NCBI GenBank assembly: GCA_002305235.1
Contig: DBQL01000145.1
Location: 1 to 17,607 of the forward strand
DNA from: Prevotella sp. UBA1395
GTDB lineage: Bacteria > Bacteroidota > Bacteroidia > Bacteroidales > Bacteroidaceae
Reading direction: 5' to 3'
Length of the DNA: 17,607 bases
The notes below the pieces were generated by a model. It saw only the letters and a program-made list of their open reading frames with translations, was not told the origin of the DNA and made no database searches. Below, piece by piece: positions 3,272 to 17,378 of this stretch (within the stretch, counting starts at the first letter, position 1; every line of letters begins with the position of its first letter). The position numbers and the translations under genes are program-made.

Positions 3272-4843
3272 ATGAAGAACTATATCATCTCATTACTCCT
3301 GTCGGCAGCCGCAACGCTGCCGTCTTCAGCACAGGATGTGACAGCCACCATTCATGTCAATCAAGGCCAAAACCGCATTCCCAAGGAGATTTACGGTCAG
3401 TTTGCCGAGCATCTCGGATCTTGTATCTACGGCGGTCTTTGGGTTGGTCCCGAGTCTCCGATTGCCAATACCCAAGGCTATCGCAACGATGTGCTGAAGG
3501 CTTTGCAAGAGCTGAAGGTGCCGGTGCTGCGTTGGCCGGGCGGATGCTTTGCCGATGAATACCACTGGATGGATGGCATCGGACCACGTGAGAATCGCCC
3601 CAAGATGCAAAACAACAACTGGGGTGGTACCATCGAGGACAATTCCTTTGGCACACACGAGTTTCTTAACCTTTGCGAACTGCTCGGCGCAGAGCCTTAT
3701 ATCAGTGGCAATGTGGGCAGCGGCACGGTTGAGGAACTGGCCAAATGGGTGGAATATATGACCAGCGACGGTGAGACGCCGATGGCCAAGCTGCGTCGTC
3801 AGAACGGCCGCGAGAAGTCGTGGAACGTCAAATACCTTGGCGTGGGCAACGAAAGCTGGGGTTGCGGCGGAAACATGAGACCCGAATACTATGCCGACCT
3901 CTTCCGCAGATACTCCGTCTATTGTCGCGATTACGACAACCACAAACTCTATAAGATTGCCTCGGGAGCCAGCGATTACGACTATAACTGGACGCAGGTG
4001 CTCATGGATAATGTTGGCCACCGCATGGATGGCGTGTCTCTGCACTATTACACCGTGAAGGGATGGAACGGCTCCAAAGGCTCAGCCACGAATTTCAACC
4101 ATCAGGAATACTACCAGACCATCAGCAAATGCTTGCAGATCGAAGACGTGATCAAGAAGCACAGCGATATCATGGACAAGAAAGACCCGCAGAAACGCAT
4201 CGGTCTTTTGGTGGATGAGTGGGGCACATGGTGGGATGAAGAGCCGGGAACCATCAAGGGACACCTCTACCAGCAGAACACCATGCGTGACGCAATGGTG
4301 GCCGCACTGTCTCTCAACGTGTTCCACCGACACACCGACCGTGTCAAGATGGCGAACATCGCACAGGTTGTCAACGTGCTGCAAAGCATGATTCTCACCG
4401 ACACCAAAGGGCCGGGACACATGGTACTCACACCCACTTACCACGTGTTCCACATGTATCGTGACTTCCAAGAGGCCACCTATCTGCCCATAGACGTCAA
4501 GACCGACTCCATCGCTGTGCCCGGAGGAGGCATGCACCGACAGGCCGACGGCAAGATTCCGGTCGTCGATGTGTCTGCCGCCAAGAAGCAAGACGGTACC
4601 ATTGTCATTGCCTTGGCCAACACAAGTCTTGAGAAAGCACAAGACGTGGAGCTGGCGTTAGACAATGCCACGCTCAAGACGGCCACCGGGCGCGTACTGA
4701 CCGGCAAGAAGGTAGACGATTACAATGACTTTGAGCATCCCGATGTTGTCAAGACAACCGACTTCAAGAACATCAAGTTGAAGAAAAACACGGTTAAGAT
4801 GACCATCCCCGCCATGTCTGTCGTCGTGGTCAACCTGAAGTAG
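3272..4843 (+). CDS. Secreted GH51 alpha-L-arabinofuranosidase
   Basis: This 523-residue glycoside hydrolase releases terminal alpha-L-arabinofuranose from arabinan, arabinoxylan or their oligosaccharides. The chosen start ATG 3272 begins a clear signal peptide ([21 protein letters not shown]), followed by mature [10 protein letters not shown]. The frame is open further up to 3221 inside the kinase gene, but that would put a charged extension before the signal peptide. The first beta-strand block is [18 protein letters not shown]. The acid/base is Glu194 in [11 protein letters not shown] and the nucleophile is Glu316 in [10 protein letters not shown], both typical of GH51. The C-terminal beta-sandwich ends in MSVVVVNLK. 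No lipobox cysteine follows the signal, so a periplasmic location is likely, acting on imported oligosaccharides. Only 13 bp separate it from the kinase stop, so the two are probably cotranscribed. Confidence 0.95.
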
Positions 4844-4849
4844 ACCGCC

Positions 4850-4896
4850 ATGCCGCGGCATCCATCATCCATTCTCCGGCATACCATATTATAATA
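4850..4896 (+). repeat. Two short perfect palindromes in the spacer before transketolase
   Basis: The 108-bp gap between the GH51 and transketolase genes contains ATGCCGCGGCAT (4850-4861) and TATTATAATA (4887-4896). Both are perfectly self-complementary. CATACC at 4880-4885 is also complementary to GGTATG at 4914-4919. No TAnnTTTG promoter box and no T-tract terminator were found. They may be protein-binding dyads or chance; the function is unknown. Confidence 0.35.
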
Positions 4897-4951
4897 CGAT
4901 GTGTTCCGGGGAAGGTATGAGAAAAAGTAGTTTCAAATCAACAACATAACA

Positions 4952-6976
4952 ATGAACGACATTAAAGTAATGAACCATGCAGCCGACAACATTCGCATCT
5001 TGGCTGCATCTATGGTAGAAAAAGCCAACTCCGGACACCCCGGAGGTGCTATGGGAGGCGCTGATTTCATCAATGTGCTCTTTGCCGAGTATCTCGTTTA
5101 TGATCCCGCCGATCCCAAATGGACCGGCCGCGACCGCTTCTTCCTCGACCCGGGCCACATGAGTCCGATGCTCTACTCCGGCTTGGCCATGCGCGGCTTC
5201 TTCTCAATGGAAGACCTGAAACAATTCCGTCAATGGGAATCGGTTACCCCCGGTCACCCCGAACTTGACGTGGAGCGAGGCATCGAGAACTCTTCAGGCC
5301 CTCTCGGCCAAGGCCATGCGATGGCTGCCGGTGCTGCCATTGCCGAGAAATTCCTTGAGGCACGCCTTGGCAAAACGATGATGCAGCACAAGATCTACGC
5401 CTATATCAGCGACGGTGCCGTGCAGGAGGAGATCTCTCAGGGTGTAGGTCGCATTGCCGGCGTATTGGGATTGAACAACCTCATCATGTTCTACGACTCC
5501 AATGACATTCAGCTTTCCACAGAGACCAAGCTCGTGATGAACGAGAATACCAAGGCCAAGTATGAGGCATGGGGATGGAATGTGATGGAGATCGACGGCA
5601 ACAACGTGGAGCAAATCCGCAAGGCCCTCGATGCCGCCCTGCAGGAAGAGAGCCGCCCCACGCTCATCATCGGCAAGACCATCATGGGCAAGGGTGCCCG
5701 TCAGGCCGACGGGTCGAGCTACGAGGCCAACCTCAAGACGCACGGAGCACCGCTCGGAGGCGAAGCCTACGTGAACACCATCAAGAACCTTGGAGGCGAT
5801 GTTGAAAATCCGTTCGTGATCTTTGACGACGTGAAGGCACTCTATGACGCCCGCCGCGAAGAGCTCAAGACGATTGTCGCAGCACGCAAAGCCGACGAGG
5901 CAGCATGGCGCAGCGCCAATGCCGACAAGGCTGCCCTGATGGATGAGTGGTTCTCGGGCAAGGCCCCCAAGGTAGACTGGAGCAAGGTGGAGCAGAAAGC
6001 CGGAGCGGCAACACGTGCTGCCAGTGCAGCCTGTCTCACGGCATTGGCCGAGCAGGTTCCCAACATGATCTGCGCCTCTGCCGACCTTTCCAACTCCGAC
6101 AAGACCGACGGCTTCCTCAAGAAAACCACAAGCCTTGTCAAAGGAGACTTCAGTGGTGCCTTCTTCCAAGCCGGCGTGAGCGAGCTGACAATGGCCGACA
6201 TCTGTATCGGTATGATGCTTCATGGTGGCGTAATCGCCGCATGTGGCACATTCTTCGTATTCTCCGACTACATGAAACCGGCTGTCCGCATGGCTGCCCT
6301 GATGCAAGTGCCCGTGAAGTTTGTATGGACCCACGATGCCTTCCGCGTGGGCGAAGACGGTCCTACCCATGAGCCGGTGGAGCAGGAGGCGCAGATCCGA
6401 CTGATGGAAAAGATGAAAAACCATGCCGGTAAAGACAGCGTGCGCGTGTTCCGCCCTGCCGATGCCGAGGAGACCACCGTGTGCTGGAAACTCGCCATGG
6501 AAAACGTGGATACCCCCACAGCGCTCATCTTTTCTCGTCAGGGCATCGCCAATCTGCCCGAGGGCAACGACTATGAGCAGGCTGCCAAGGGTGCTTACAT
6601 CGTGGCCGGGTCTGACGAAAACCCCGACGTGATTCTCGTGGCCAGCGGTTCAGAGGTTTCTACCCTCGAGGCCGGCACAGAGGCTCTGCGCAAAGACGGC
6701 ATCAAGGTGCGGGTGGTAAGCGCTCCCTCCGAGGGATTGTTCCGCAACCAGAGTGCCGAGTACCAGCAGAGCGTGCTGCCCTTCGGCGTGAAGAAGTTTG
6801 GATTGACCGCCGGACTGCCTGTCACCCTTGAGAGCTTGGTGGGCAACGGACCCGAGAGCAAGGTGTTCGGCATGCCGAGTTTCGGTTTCTCGGCTCCTTA
6901 CAAGGTGCTCGATGAGAAATTAGGCTACACCGGAGAGAACGTGTACAATCAGGTGAAAGCGTTCTTGAAGGGATAG
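4952..6976 (+). CDS. tkt: Transketolase
   Basis: This thiamine-diphosphate enzyme of the non-oxidative pentose phosphate pathway moves two-carbon ketol units, for example from xylulose-5-phosphate to ribose-5-phosphate. Its 674 residues are a full-length transketolase. Landmarks are NSGHPGGAMGGADF (residues 26-39), GPLGQGHAMAAGAAI, the ThDP/Mg motif SDGAVQEEISQGV from residue 153, a central PYR domain with the catalytic Glu411 in GVSELTMADICIG, THDAFRVGEDGPTHEPVEQE, and a C-terminal domain ending in YNQVKAFLKG. The usual GDG...MEG is changed to SDG...QEE, which I believe is typical of Bacteroidetes transketolases. The context fits: arabinose yields D-xylulose-5-phosphate, its donor substrate, and rpiB follows. 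The start at 4952 is preceded by an A-rich leader. A second ATG at 4970 is possible but less likely. Confidence 0.96.
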   Translation: MNDIKVMNHAADNIRILAASMVEKANSGHPGGAMGGADFINVLFAEYLVYDPADPKWTGRDRFFLDPGHMSPMLYSGLAMRGFFSMEDLKQFRQWESVTPGHPELDVERGIENSSGPLGQGHAMAAGAAIAEKFLEARLGKTMMQHKIYAYISDGAVQEEISQGVGRIAGVLGLNNLIMFYDSNDIQLSTETKLVMNENTKAKYEAWGWNVMEIDGNNVEQIRKALDAALQEESRPTLIIGKTIMGKGARQADGSSYEANLKTHGAPLGGEAYVNTIKNLGGDVENPFVIFDDVKALYDARREELKTIVAARKADEAAWRSANADKAALMDEWFSGKAPKVDWSKVEQKAGAATRAASAACLTALAEQVPNMICASADLSNSDKTDGFLKKTTSLVKGDFSGAFFQAGVSELTMADICIGMMLHGGVIAACGTFFVFSDYMKPAVRMAALMQVPVKFVWTHDAFRVGEDGPTHEPVEQEAQIRLMEKMKNHAGKDSVRVFRPADAEETTVCWKLAMENVDTPTALIFSRQGIANLPEGNDYEQAAKGAYIVAGSDENPDVILVASGSEVSTLEAGTEALRKDGIKVRVVSAPSEGLFRNQSAEYQQSVLPFGVKKFGLTAGLPVTLESLVGNGPESKVFGMPSFGFSAPYKVLDEKLGYTGENVYNQVKAFLKG

Positions 6977-7662: not shown

Positions 7663-7727
7663 CTATGATGTATATACATGGGGCATACACTCTCCCCCGC
7701 CCGATCACCTCAAAACCACACATCGTC

Positions 7728-8093
7728 ATGACTCAAAACCTGCTTCTCTGCCTCGGTTCCAACACCCGGCAACAATACCATATCGACACCGCCCAACGGT
7801 TGCTCACCGAGGCATTGGGGCCCATGCGCTTCACCCCGCCGCTGTGGACCAAGCCCGTGGGCATCGAGTCGCCACAGTTTATCAACTGCTTGGGAACCGT
7901 GGAAACCACATTGGATTATGACCAAATACTCCGCCTCACCAAAGACATTGAGCGCAAAATGGGGCGTACACACGGGCAAACGCCGTCACACACGGTGCTG
8001 ATCGATATCGACATCTTGCGTTTGGGCGATAAGATATACCATGCCGCCGATTGGGAGCGTGACTTTGTGAAGGTGCTTCTCAAGGACCTCTGA
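7728..8093 (+). CDS. folK: Short, divergent HPPK (FolK-like) protein
   Basis: It resembles 2-amino-4-hydroxy-6-hydroxymethyldihydropteridine pyrophosphokinase, which transfers pyrophosphate from ATP in folate synthesis. ATG 7728 is chosen because LLLCLGSN, the family N-terminus, follows directly; the open frame back to 7665 adds unrelated residues. KPVGIESPQFINC and IERKMGRTHGQ match the core, and the two metal-binding Asp are kept in IDIDIL. It has only 121 residues against about 158 in E. coli and stops soon after VKVLLKDL, so the C-terminal part is missing. A gap-free alignment by eye to E. coli FolK keeps Arg82 but replaces Trp89 by Ser and the catalytic-loop Arg92 by Val. It may be a low-activity paralogue or have another pterin- or nucleotide-related role. 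The family is fairly secure; FolK activity is not. Confidence 0.75.
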   Translation: MTQNLLLCLGSNTRQQYHIDTAQRLLTEALGPMRFTPPLWTKPVGIESPQFINCLGTVETTLDYDQILRLTKDIERKMGRTHGQTPSHTVLIDIDILRLGDKIYHAADWERDFVKVLLKDL

Positions 8094-11915: not shown

Positions 11916-12905
11916 TTATCTTCTGCCGCCACCAAAGTGACCTCCGCCGCCTCCGGCACTTCCTCCGGACCGGCCACCACCAAAACTACCTCCCGATGAC
12001 GAGCCGCCACCGAAACTACCCGTGCTTCTGCTGCTGTTTCCGAATGATGGTGTAGACCGCGTATTGTTGCCAAAGTTGCTGTTGTTGTATGTCGGCGCGG
12101 TGCGAGTGCCGGTCGTGCGACCTCCGAACGAGCGGTTTCGATTGCTGCCCGAGGTGTAAGTGTTCGTCCGTGTCGTACTGCCCGAACCGGTATAACCACC
12201 GAATCGGCCACCCGAAGACACGGTGTTGCGGCCGTCGCGGGTCCAAGTCCGGTAACCGGTGGCCCCACGCGGATTGCCTCCGGAATAGCTTACATAGCCC
12301 CCTCCGTAGTAAGACCACCCGTAACGGCCATACCAGCCGAAATAATACGGACTGTACCAGCCGCCGTAGCCATAGTACCACGGGTCATACCAGCCGCCAT
12401 ACCAGCCGCCATACCAATCGTAATACCACGGGGCATACCATCCGCCATAGCCCGCATACCACGGATCATACCAGCCACCGTACCATCCACGGTAGCCGCG
12501 CGGACCATATCTGTAAAACCAAGGGTCATAGAATCCATCCCAACGACTCATGTATCGCGAGTAGGAATAATCGTCGTCATCGTAATAGTTCCTATTCGTC
12601 ATGATATAAGTCGTATCGATATATACCGAGTCGGGAGACACTCCGTAACCGCGTTCCAAGCTGATGATGTCACTTCCGATGGAGTCTACGCCGATCTTGA
12701 GATAGTAACTGCGAAACTTGCCGGCACGATTATACTCGTCGACATTACGGTTACTCCCCCGGTAATAGGCCGGGGCGTCATCCGTTACGACAGACTTCAC
12801 AACCTTATCCGACTTGTCAGGCACGAAATATAAATCATCGTCCTGAGCCATTGTCTGCAAAGGCATCATGCCTGCAAGGACTAAAAGTAATAGCAACTTT
12901 TTCAT
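11916..12905 (-). CDS. Secreted Gly/Tyr/Trp-rich low-complexity protein, function unknown
   Basis: This 329-residue protein has a signal peptide (MKKLLLLLVLAGMMPLQTMA), then a mature start of QDDDLYFVPD. Residues 21-105 are a folded-looking part that ends in SVYIDTTYIMTNRNYYDDDD. Residues 122-205 are an aromatic repeat tract built from WYGGWYDPWY-like units, nearly all Gly, Trp, Tyr, Pro and Asp. Residues 206-329 are rich in Gly, Ser, Thr, Arg and Asn with FGG and SGG repeats, ending in GGGHFGGGRR. I recall similar Bacteroidetes proteins labelled 'vitellogenin-like', but that label has no functional value. Composition suggests a disordered, sticky or self-assembling envelope or extracellular protein. 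It is probably cotranscribed with the barrel protein gene 35 bp downstream, so an outer-membrane partnership is possible. The frame is intact and has no frameshift despite the repeats. Confidence 0.85.
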   Translation of the reverse strand: MKKLLLLLVLAGMMPLQTMAQDDDLYFVPDKSDKVVKSVVTDDAPAYYRGSNRNVDEYNRAGKFRSYYLKIGVDSIGSDIISLERGYGVSPDSVYIDTTYIMTNRNYYDDDDYSYSRYMSRWDGFYDPWFYRYGPRGYRGWYGGWYDPWYAGYGGWYAPWYYDWYGGWYGGWYDPWYYGYGGWYSPYYFGWYGRYGWSYYGGGYVSYSGGNPRGATGYRTWTRDGRNTVSSGGRFGGYTGSGSTTRTNTYTSGSNRNRSFGGRTTGTRTAPTYNNSNFGNNTRSTPSFGNSSRSTGSFGGGSSSGGSFGGGRSGGSAGGGGGHFGGGRR

Positions 12906-13996: not shown

Positions 13997-14032
13997 AAAA
14001 AGAGATAAGACCGCAAGGCCTTATCTCTTTTT
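13997..14032. terminator. Bidirectional terminator shared by prmA and the HU-LysM gene
   Basis: The arms AAAAAGAGATAAG (13997-14009) and CTTATCTCTTTTT (14020-14032) are perfect 13-bp complements. Inside, CC/GG closes a GCAA tetraloop after one A-C mismatch. On the + strand the stem ends in T5, and on the - strand it also ends in T5. It starts 47 bp after the prmA stop. It includes the stop (14021-14023) and the last three codons (Lys-Lys-Arg) of the - strand gene. Confidence 0.85.
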
Positions 14033-15757
14033 CAGTTTCAAGGCAGGAATCTTCACCTTTTCGCCGGCCTTAAACTCCGTGCGCCCGCCGTTCACAGCCT
14101 CGATATAACACTCCATGCCCGGTCCGAGGTTGGCTTTACTGATGCTCGACAAGGTCTGACCGGGTCTCACCGTCACCGTATGGTCGATGCCGGTAATGGT
14201 GTAGGCGCCCGTCCTTACCCTTACATCATTGTTATATGCCGACTGCCGCGCGGCGGCTTGAGATTCCGCAGCCGTTTTCTTGTCGGCCTTGGCGGCGGTC
14301 TCCTGCTGTTTTGCCAAAGCAGCTTTCCGTGCTTCCGCGGCTTTGACGGCCTCCTCTTCGATGCGTCGTTTCTCTTTCAACTCCGCCTCCGCAAGTGCTG
14401 CCGCCTTGGCCTGTTCAGCCTTTTCCAATTCCTGCCTCTGCCTGATGGCAGCCACACTGTCGGCCTTTGCCTTGGCCATAGCCAACGTATCAGGCTCGGG
14501 TTTAGACTTGACGACCGGCACGGGGGCGGTCTTTACCGGCACGGTTTCAGCCTCGAGATGCTGTATGCGGTTGTTCTTTTTGTCCAATTGACCCATCATC
14601 CACACCATCGCCCCGATGCATCCGACGACCAACAAGGCCGCCACACCAATCACAACCTTCAACATTTGGTGCTGTCGCTCCACCTGTTCGGCCAGTTCCA
14701 ACGTATGCAACCTGATGGTTCCAAGTCCGGAACCGTCATCCGTCTCATTGCCCTCGCCGACAGACGGAGCCTCAACTTCGGATGAATGAGTATTGTCAGC
14801 ACCCGCCGAAGGGCTATCTTCCATCCGTGTCGGGGCCTCCTCTTCCTGCGATGGGGCGTTCTCATCCTGCGATGGGGCCTCGTTGCCGGGCGTAGACGTC
14901 TCCGCCGCGTGATACAACGGTGCTATGCCCATCTCATCCGACTGTTCGTGGGTCTCCGACTCAGATTTCACGGCTACGGGTCGACGGCCGTTCAGCAAAG
15001 CCAGTTGGTTGGCATCCAATACCAATCGGTCTTCCCTGACCTCACCGACCGGACCCGCTCCCATCGTCATCACGTTACGGTTGTCTGTCGTCACGGCATC
15101 ACTCCCCCCCGCATCATCTGCTGCCGGGTGCTCGTCTGCCCTGTCGGTGCCGGGCGCCACCGCCTCTTTCGGACGGTCACCATTGAGTCTTGCCAGCAGG
15201 TCGGCGTCGATAACCAGTTGTTCGGAAACCTCGTGCGATACCGTTTTCGGCTCCGATGCCACCTCGGGCACATCGCGAACAGGGTTCGCAGACAGGGTTT
15301 CCACGGTCGCGGCCGGTGTCACTTCCGACACATTTGCAGTATCGTTGTCACTCTCAAGTCCCGTGTCGCCATCGCCGTCATCGTCCGACTCGACCATAGA
15401 GTCGGCGAATTTCCGGTCTATCTCATCAAATTCCACCCCTTCATTGACCACCACTGTCTCAAACTGCGCGAACGGACGGTTCACCTGATCGCGCATGGCA
15501 GCATCGGCCGTGAAGCTGATTTTGTCGCGTCCCTCAATGATAATCGGTTCCCCGGTGTTCACATCCACGCTCTTGCGCGATGCCACACTGGTCACCTTGA
15601 ACGTGCCAAGGCCCTTCACCTTGACCTGTTTCTCGTCGCGAAGACCATCGTTCACCACCTCGAAGAAGTGGGTTACCAACTGCTCCGCGGCCGCCCTGTC
15701 GATGTCATACTTCTCTACCAAGAAGCGGGCAAGGTCTTTGTTAGCTATCTTACTCAT
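14021..15757 (-). CDS. HU-like, single-membrane-helix, LysM-domain protein
   Basis: This 578-residue protein joins four parts. Residues 1-95 form an HU/IHF-like domain (MSKIANKDLARFL, VKVKGLGTFKVTSVASRK, and the arm region with VNTGEP). Residues 100-350 are an acidic, Pro/Ser/Thr-rich linker containing two copies of a 17-residue motif, QLVIDADLLARLNGDRP (180-196) and RLVLDANQLALLNGRRP (244-260). A hydrophobic helix VVIGVAALLVVGCIGAMVWM lies at about 368-387. An Ala/Lys/Glu-rich predicted coiled coil covers about 427-505. A LysM domain (HTVTVRPGQTLSSISKANLG to FKAGEKVKIPAL) covers about 525-574. LysM binds peptidoglycan-type glycans and HU binds DNA, so a link from nucleoid through inner membrane to cell wall can be inferred. 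The arm lacks the usual intercalating Pro, so DNA binding is uncertain. Gap to the HU gene: 14 bp. Confidence 0.88.
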   Translation of the reverse strand: MSKIANKDLARFLVEKYDIDRAAAEQLVTHFFEVVNDGLRDEKQVKVKGLGTFKVTSVASRKSVDVNTGEPIIIEGRDKISFTADAAMRDQVNRPFAQFETVVVNEGVEFDEIDRKFADSMVESDDDGDGDTGLESDNDTANVSEVTPAATVETLSANPVRDVPEVASEPKTVSHEVSEQLVIDADLLARLNGDRPKEAVAPGTDRADEHPAADDAGGSDAVTTDNRNVMTMGAGPVGEVREDRLVLDANQLALLNGRRPVAVKSESETHEQSDEMGIAPLYHAAETSTPGNEAPSQDENAPSQEEEAPTRMEDSPSAGADNTHSSEVEAPSVGEGNETDDGSGLGTIRLHTLELAEQVERQHQMLKVVIGVAALLVVGCIGAMVWMMGQLDKKNNRIQHLEAETVPVKTAPVPVVKSKPEPDTLAMAKAKADSVAAIRQRQELEKAEQAKAAALAEAELKEKRRIEEEAVKAAEARKAALAKQQETAAKADKKTAAESQAAARQSAYNNDVRVRTGAYTITGIDHTVTVRPGQTLSSISKANLGPGMECYIEAVNGGRTEFKAGEKVKIPALKLKKR

Positions 15758-15771
15758 ATTCTTCGTGCCGG

Positions 15772-16050
15772 TTACGCTTTCTTCAATTCCTCCTTGATAG
15801 ATGCCACGGGCTTGAAACCGAGCACCAGTTTTGGCGGCACGAGCATGCGCTGCTGCGTGCCGGGATTGACAACGATGCGCTCCAACCGCTTCTTTACCTC
15901 AAATGTTCCGAAGTTGGCGACCTGCAAACTGTCGCCCTGCTCGAAGCGAGTAGCCATGAAATCGATGAGGTCGGTCACCATTTTCTGGGTGTCGGCCTGT
16001 GTATAGCCGGCGCGTTGCGCCAATTCCGCAATGAATTCCTTGTTGTTCAT
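15772..16050 (-). CDS. HU/IHF-family DNA-binding protein
   Basis: This 92-residue nucleoid protein has the family size. It opens MNNKEFIAELAQRAGYTQADTQ, carries the dimer-core sequence LQVANFGTFEVKKR, and has a DNA-binding arm around VNPGTQQRMLVPPK with the conserved intercalating Pro after Asn. It ends in GFKPVASIKEELKKA. The start codon overlaps the rimO stop in an ATGA arrangement (16047-16050), and the HU-LysM gene follows after 14 bp. The three are therefore almost certainly one transcript with coupled translation. It is divergent from typical HupB-like proteins, and Bacteroidetes often carry several HU paralogues. A partnership with the neighbouring HU-LysM protein, for example as a heterodimer through the HU fold, is possible but inferred. 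Confidence 0.92.
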   Translation of the reverse strand: MNNKEFIAELAQRAGYTQADTQKMVTDLIDFMATRFEQGDSLQVANFGTFEVKKRLERIVVNPGTQQRMLVPPKLVLGFKPVASIKEELKKA

Positions 16051-17378
16051 ACCACTCCGTATAAGTCAAATTCGTCACTGTCGGTAATCTTCACGTCGTA
16101 GAAACATCCCGTGCGCAGCCTGCGGTTCTCCGCTGGAATGAGCACCTCGGGGTCTACCTCCGGCGAGCATGCCTCCGTGCGGCCCACATAATAGTTGCCC
16201 TCCTTGCGGTCGATGATCACCTTGAGGGTCTGCCCCACCTTGGCCGACTCGATGTCGGCGCTGATCTCTTGCTGCACGGCCATGAGCTTATCCAACCGCC
16301 GCTGCTTCACCTCCTCGGGCACGTCGTCTTCGTAATGGCGCGCGGAATAGGTGCCCTCCTCCTCGGAATAGACAAAGGCCCCCATGCGCTCGAAGCGTGT
16401 CTCGCGCACGAAATCGACCAGTTCGTTGAAATCATCGTCCGTCTCGCCGGGAAAACCCACCAGCAATGTGGTGCGCAGGGTGATGCCGGGCACCCGCTCG
16501 CGGATAGTCTTGATGAGGTCGAGCGTCTCTTGTTTGGTCACGTGGCGGCGCATACGGTCGAGCATATTGTCTGAAATATGCTGCAAGGCAATGTCCAGAT
16601 ACTTGCACACATTGGGTTTGGCGGCCATCACATCGAGCAGTTCCAAGGGAAACTGGTTGGGGTAAGCATAGTGCAACCTGATCCATTTCACGCCCTTGAT
16701 ATCCGCCATGCGGCTTACCAGTTCGGCTATCTGCGGCTTACCATAAAGGTCTACGCCATAGTAAGTAAGCTCCTGTTCGATAATCTGAAACTCTTTCACA
16801 CCCTCGGCCACCAATGCCTCTACCTCACGCAGAATATCGTCTATCGGTCTCGACACGTGCCTGCCGGTGATGAGCGGAATGGCGCAATAGGCGCAATGCC
16901 TGTCACATCCCTCGGCAATCTTGATATAGGCGTAGTGGCGCGGCGTGGTGATCACCCTGCCTGCCGACATCTTCTCGCGGCTCTCGCCAAACGTCTCAGA
17001 CGACACATCGTCGCTTCGCGCCGGTCCGATGTCGCTCAAGAGTTGCTTGTAATTGAACTTGCCATAGAATTTATCCACCTCGGGAATAGACTCTTCCAGC
17101 TCTTGCTGGTAGCGTTGCGACAGGCATCCCATGACATACAGCCGGCTGAGCCGCCCCTCGTTCTTGGCCTCCACAAACTCGAGGATGGTGTTGATACTCT
17201 CTTCCTTGGCACTTTCTATGAACCCGCAGGTATTGATCACAGCAATCTCGCCCTGCGGCCTTTTGGCATCGTGGACACACCGATACCCCTGATTCTTGAA
17301 TTGACGCATGAGCTGTTCGGAATCGACGAGATTCTTGGAACAGCCCATCGTGATAAAGTCTATCTGATTTTTTTTCAT
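16047..17378 (-). CDS. rimO: Ribosomal protein S12 methylthiotransferase
   Basis: This radical-SAM enzyme adds a methylthio group to the conserved Asp of ribosomal protein S12. It has 443 residues from ATG 17378, the family length. The frame stays open to 17531, but that extension would overlap the ftsY end and has no family similarity. The N-terminal MTTase domain holds the auxiliary-cluster cysteines Cys13 (MGCSKNLVDSE), Cys51 (NTCGFIESAKEES) and Cys85 (VMGCLSQ). The radical-SAM cluster is C158-x3-C162-x2-C165 in EGCDRHCAYCAIPLITG. A TRAM domain follows near the C-terminus (LKVIIDRKEGNYYVGRTE). RimO, not MiaB, is indicated by GCSKNLVDSE. The gene follows ftsY by 91 bp, an order common in Bacteroidetes. 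An A8 run directly after the ATG is a possible slippage spot. Confidence 0.96.
   Translation of the reverse strand: MKKNQIDFITMGCSKNLVDSEQLMRQFKNQGYRCVHDAKRPQGEIAVINTCGFIESAKEESINTILEFVEAKNEGRLSRLYVMGCLSQRYQQELEESIPEVDKFYGKFNYKQLLSDIGPARSDDVSSETFGESREKMSAGRVITTPRHYAYIKIAEGCDRHCAYCAIPLITGRHVSRPIDDILREVEALVAEGVKEFQIIEQELTYYGVDLYGKPQIAELVSRMADIKGVKWIRLHYAYPNQFPLELLDVMAAKPNVCKYLDIALQHISDNMLDRMRRHVTKQETLDLIKTIRERVPGITLRTTLLVGFPGETDDDFNELVDFVRETRFERMGAFVYSEEEGTYSARHYEDDVPEEVKQRRLDKLMAVQQEISADIESAKVGQTLKVIIDRKEGNYYVGRTEACSPEVDPEVLIPAENRRLRTGCFYDVKITDSDEFDLYGVV

Follow-up and report, generated by a model that had tools for sequence, protein, structure and literature searches.

HU and IHF subunits are soluble proteins whose arm-tip proline intercalates into DNA, and members of this family shape promoters. 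In Bacteroidetes, which include dominant gut Gram-negatives, the positioning of the nucleoid relative to the envelope has, to our knowledge, been little explored. The idea of linking an HU module through a helix to a wall domain already exists in HU-CCDC81/SPOR proteins, and the HU-type domains of CCDC81 proteins have been proposed as docking surfaces. A second point of reference is HubP of Vibrio cholerae, which carries its LysM on the N-terminal side. As described in PMC8789113, HubP combines a periplasmic LysM, coiled coils flanking a single membrane helix and a highly acidic cytosolic part, and it sets the position of the chromosome origin through ParA1.

We analyzed a 17,607-nucleotide stretch from Prevotella sp. 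UBA1395 (contig DBQL01000145.1), referred to here as the window. It encodes a tethered HU protein together with a small HU gene directly upstream, and the relevant features are as follows.

14021..15757, minus strand: gene of the tethered HU protein, 578 aa, ordered HU–acidic linker–membrane helix–long helix–LysM
15461..15757, minus strand: HU/IHF domain, residues 1-99
15560..15562, minus strand: codon of Val66, at the site of the DNA-intercalating proline of HU/IHF
14729..15460, minus strand: acidic, poorly ordered linker, residues 100-343, from charge count and low pLDDT
14585..14656, minus strand: single membrane helix, residues 368-391, from the model and a hydropathy scan
14237..14545, minus strand: Ala/Lys/Glu-rich helical stalk, residues 405-507
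14030..14194, minus strand: LysM-type domain, residues 522-576
15772..16050, minus strand: small upstream partner HU gene, 92 aa, separated by 14 nt from the start of the tethered gene (PF00216, 7.1e-23)
16047..17378, minus strand: rimO (S12 methylthiotransferase), upstream of the partner (TIGR01125, 6.1e-143)

Elsewhere in the window, a 329-aa Gly/Tyr/Trp/Ser-rich protein with a signal-like start (11916-12905, minus strand) matched nothing in Pfam or NCBIfam at E <= 1. A 142-aa HPPK domain protein (7665-8093, plus strand) lies between rpiB-type and GHL10 glycosidase-like genes. A tRNA scan of the window found none, and a promoter and terminator scan returned sites no more numerous than in shuffles.

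The domain order proposed from the letters alone holds up throughout. The N-terminal domain scores 64.6 bits against PF00216 (cut-off 22.4; 1e-17), its HU fold is recovered in the predicted structure and by structural comparison, and the 50 Foldseek matches listed for the model are exclusively HU/IHF-type. The acidic linker (59 D+E versus 15 K+R), with low pLDDT over most of its length, the one hydrophobic helix and the Ala/Lys/Glu-rich helix were likewise all found as described. In one relative (L119, ORF 3826-5130) the acidic linker consists of many near-identical 'EEPVVEDEQPVV'-like repeats, and because of these repeats slippage may alter linker length. The claimed C-terminal LysM is borne out as a fold, modelled at pLDDT ~95 with a beta-alpha-alpha-beta arrangement and matching solved LysM domains in VIA-align 2 (the Foldseek matches listed being the HU/IHF-type ones), though its PF01476 score of 12.8 bits falls under the curated cut-off of 20.9. 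Relatives L011 (22.6 bits) and L277 (23.8 bits) exceed that cut-off. The HU and LysM folds are supported in both the window protein and a Balneolaceae relative, using single domains alone, as the whole-chain models were of low confidence (pTM 0.30 and 0.36).

The C-terminus of the window protein was detected by tblastn in 71 of 74 relatives' loci. A family-built LysM profile matches 173 of the 174 tallied loci outside the window (L122 is the single exception), a tally that includes duplicate copies of the same locus and a rate that, as for the HU profile, is partly by construction, since both profiles were built from the same family and some scored loci were included. The LysM-type domain is predicted to bind peptidoglycan or GlcNAc polymers.

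The sequence-only reading placed the N-terminal part in the cytoplasm and the C-terminal part in the periplasm, and cautioned that the flanking charges do not settle the matter. That caution stands for the window protein, whose own helix flanks are indecisive and whose hydropathy scan shows no second hydrophobic segment, but family-wide the charges do lean. Across 78 aligned rows, the first charged residue N-terminal of the helix is Lys or Arg in 77, and comparing the net charge of the 6-residue flanks gives 52 rows with N>C, 17 with equal charge and 9 with N<C (50, 8 and 20, respectively, for 15-residue flanks). These flank charges moderately favor a topology with HU inside and LysM outside.

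The tethered protein was initially treated as acting alone; the evidence instead suggests that it works as a two-protein unit together with the HU encoded upstream. The partner scores 81.1 bits against PF00216 (cut-off 22.4), and the rimO stop overlaps its start (ATGA). We called a partner wherever an HU-matching ORF of <220 aa lay on the same strand with its end no more than 400 nt ahead of the tethered HU start and no more than 120 nt beyond it. By this rule a small HU precedes all 165 distinct scorable tethered proteins (window counted), and, unlike the HU and LysM profile match rates, this adjacency is not by construction. When the 165 upstream HUs are scored against four HU profiles, the partner profile, which was built from 41 of these HUs, gives the highest score in every case. 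Ten loci without a scorable long HU ORF were dropped (L029, L043, L044, L063, L067, L084, L100, L125, L136 and L146). Among these, L043 and L044 are controls taken from the window's own genome, L029 has both genes as ORFs, L063 and L067 contain partner and tethered HU by tblastn, and L084, L100 and L125 end after the HU part with the partner upstream by tblastn. Among the 79 named relatives (Prevotella, Segatella, Hallella, Hoylesella, Xylanibacter and numerous MAGs), the small HU is upstream in 77/77 loci having >400 nt of upstream DNA. The gene rimO lies upstream in 75/76 named Prevotella-type loci with >1200 nt upstream, in 5/18 loci from the wider order and in 0/26 Balneolaceae loci.

The paired HU domains are of two distinct kinds. 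In a tree of 108 HU domains over 108 columns, in which 46 of 104 inner branches are open, all 41 tethered domains are grouped by a single branch (SH-aLRT 95). The 41 partners form a separate group (SH-aLRT 95) with three rows initially labelled 'other', which turned out to be partners of G041 (twice) and G298, and the 23 remaining HUs belong to neither group. Net charge averages -0.4 for tethered HU domains, +4.6 for partners and +6.0 for other HUs. At the arm tip, partners keep proline in 42/43, whereas tethered domains have Val in 73 of 78 aligned rows, as in the window, and Pro in one. Because proline is present in 23/28 of rows L185-L212, 26 of which are Balneolaceae, the tethered subunit probably lost it within Bacteroidales. 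In one genome (G025) the tethered HU arm is deleted. Judged from sequence, the tethered HU alone looks like a poor DNA binder in most Bacteroidales relatives; being near neutral and having lost the proline, it would contact DNA mainly via its partner.

A second single-domain HU type in Bacteroidales (loci L164, L166-L173, L175 and L176) has Ile at this position and forms its own tree group, so the arm-tip proline is not universal in the HU/IHF family. Over seven genomes, the mean between-genome distance was 0.52 and 0.58 for the tethered and partner HU domains versus 0.33 and 0.21 for two ordinary HUs from these genomes.

The tethered HU–LysM protein is real and common in its own lineage. A match at E <= 1e-15 is present in 139 of 151 own-family genomes, a few of these matches being weak and possibly plain HUs (e.g. 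G782, G770). The same domain order occurs in 15 families of its own order, Bacteroidales, and in Balneolaceae; a profile of nearer relatives gave the architecture in 20/149. Broader tallies of 357/392 and 125/345 were set aside as architecture counts, since plain HUs make up many of their weak matches. One of the 12 own-family genomes without a match, G886, contains both HUs, the linker, the helix and the LysM in a single intact ORF after rimO. A search of 58 genomes of its genus uncovered an equivalent fusion in G879, with 49% identity and no stops, and a candidate locus in G910 cut by the contig end. The second HU arm is shortened in both fusions. The other 11 genomes show only the two ordinary HU types among 21 classified single-domain loci; their weaker, longer HU-like matches include L282 (192 aa), for which the partner profile gives the top score, 28 bits. 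A tether that has diverged beyond the reach of the profiles may be present in these 11 genomes.

Conserved pairing and natural fusion are what we see of the predicted DNA-binding HU dimer. Our main reading, to which we assign a probability of roughly 0.5, is an HU heterodimer with one soluble subunit and one that crosses the membrane and holds peptidoglycan, tethering DNA to the wall. The small HU would pair with the tethered HU domain as a cytoplasmic, IHF-like heterodimer, to which the soluble subunit would supply positive charge and the DNA-kinking proline and the tethered subunit the dimer surface. From the HU, a flexible acidic linker of ~240 residues would run to the single inner-membrane helix, and a long periplasmic helical stalk would end in the peptidoglycan-holding LysM. 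Such a strap would span the membrane, linking chromosomal DNA with the cell wall, and would keep the nucleoid, or certain favored DNA sites, close to the envelope or to a wall zone in growth or division. Against this account stand the distance-correlation test, itself uninformative, which gave no co-evolution signal for the HU pair beyond shared descent, the loss of the arm in some members, and Kbp as the nearest LysM fold. The wider proposal falls slightly short of an even chance: an ancient two-gene, trans-envelope DNA-to-peptidoglycan strap, built on an obligate heterodimer of a soluble DNA-bending and a wall-bound HU, that would anchor the chromosome directly in Bacteroidales (Prevotella and relatives) and Balneolaceae, beside the tandem-HU/SPOR protein.

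The pair could also be an envelope-linked regulator and not a mechanical strap, its LysM sensing or following peptidoglycan while the HU pair alters the shape or transcription of membrane-near DNA. We consider this unlikely, although promoter shaping by HU/IHF is in keeping with it. In 12 of 18 loci from the order (L026, L028, L031, L032, L033, L034, L035, L037, L038, L039, L041 and L045), the pair adjoins a conserved gene run that, judged from its sequences, looks like moxR-DUF58-bat, genes linked to envelope and stress. However, this run was not seen in the window and went unrecognized in the nine Balneolaceae loci examined, with flanks of ~1.5 kb or less, and Pfam gives no DNA-reading domain besides HU.

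Similarly unlikely, in our estimate, is a tethered HU that serves as a DNA-free docking surface, recruiting to the membrane either the small HU or a different protein. Its near-neutral charge would suit such a role, as would the changes to its arm: most Bacteroidales relatives have lost the proline, G025 has a deleted arm and both fusions have a shortened one. The mostly Balneolaceae rows that retain the proline speak against it, and with a basic, proline-bearing partner the heterodimer could still bind DNA. That the LysM is instead Kbp/YgaU-like (potassium-dependent) and not peptidoglycan-binding, or that the protein lies the other way round in the membrane and the pair works elsewhere, seems to us improbable, even though Kbp-based sensors (8zex and 7vcm) are the best LysM fold matches, Kbp itself (7pvc) is among the structures listed, and some Balneolaceae relatives are named 'nucleoid-associated protein YgaU' in databases.

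Relatives are named 'HU family DNA-binding protein' or 'nucleoid DNA-binding protein/nucleoid-associated protein YgaU' in databases. Among the papers listed by a literature search, judged on titles and abstract openings, none concerned a tethered HU–LysM protein, and none described its pairing with a small HU, the split into two HU groups, the natural fusion or the charge asymmetry. For B. thetaiotaomicron, tables in PMC10434189 name one gene as HU and a different one as LysM. The parts of the pair suggest DNA on one side and wall on the other, and the pair recurs in far-removed branches of the phylum; it thereby opens direct anchoring of the chromosome to the wall to testing.

Among known systems, the HU-CCDC81/SPOR parallel drawn at the outset is real: L241 and L250 carry PF18174, PF18175 and SPOR. 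Like the window system, these HU-CCDC81_bac/SPOR proteins combine a pair of HU-type domains with a hydrophobic helix and a wall-binding-type domain at the C-terminus. They differ in having both HU domains, which belong to other Pfam families, within one chain and in ending in SPOR; in the window system the HUs are PF00216, one of them has its own gene, and LysM forms the end. Membership of the tethered protein in HU-CCDC81 was rejected, with PF18175 at 22.5 bits versus a cut-off of 35 and neither PF18174 nor SPOR among the Pfam matches listed. We also rejected the idea that the LysM and SPOR forms occur in complementary sets of genomes; PF18174 occurs in 131/148 genomes of the order, including the window's own, which encodes a PF18174+PF18175 protein whose end disappears into a run of N. 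At L284 and L285, a LysM-type tether gene is followed downstream by a tandem-HU-like protein with, by eye, a SPOR-like end.

IHF (IhfA/IhfB) and HU heterodimers share the HU/IHF fold and two diverged HU genes, which here lie side by side; they differ in that here one subunit is tethered and, in most Bacteroidales relatives, without the proline. Kbp/YgaU (BON-LysM) provides the closest solved LysM fold but lacks an HU and a membrane helix. HubP differs in its TPR-repeat end, its N-side LysM and its reaching DNA via partner proteins; the window system has a C-terminal LysM and an HU module that could contact DNA directly. Compared by architecture from the description in PMC8789113, HubP/FimV shares the LysM, the single membrane helix and the acidic cytosolic part, and HubP provides a working example of anchoring by this combination. 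A direct anchor, if true, would differ from landmarks such as HubP, which acts through ParA1.
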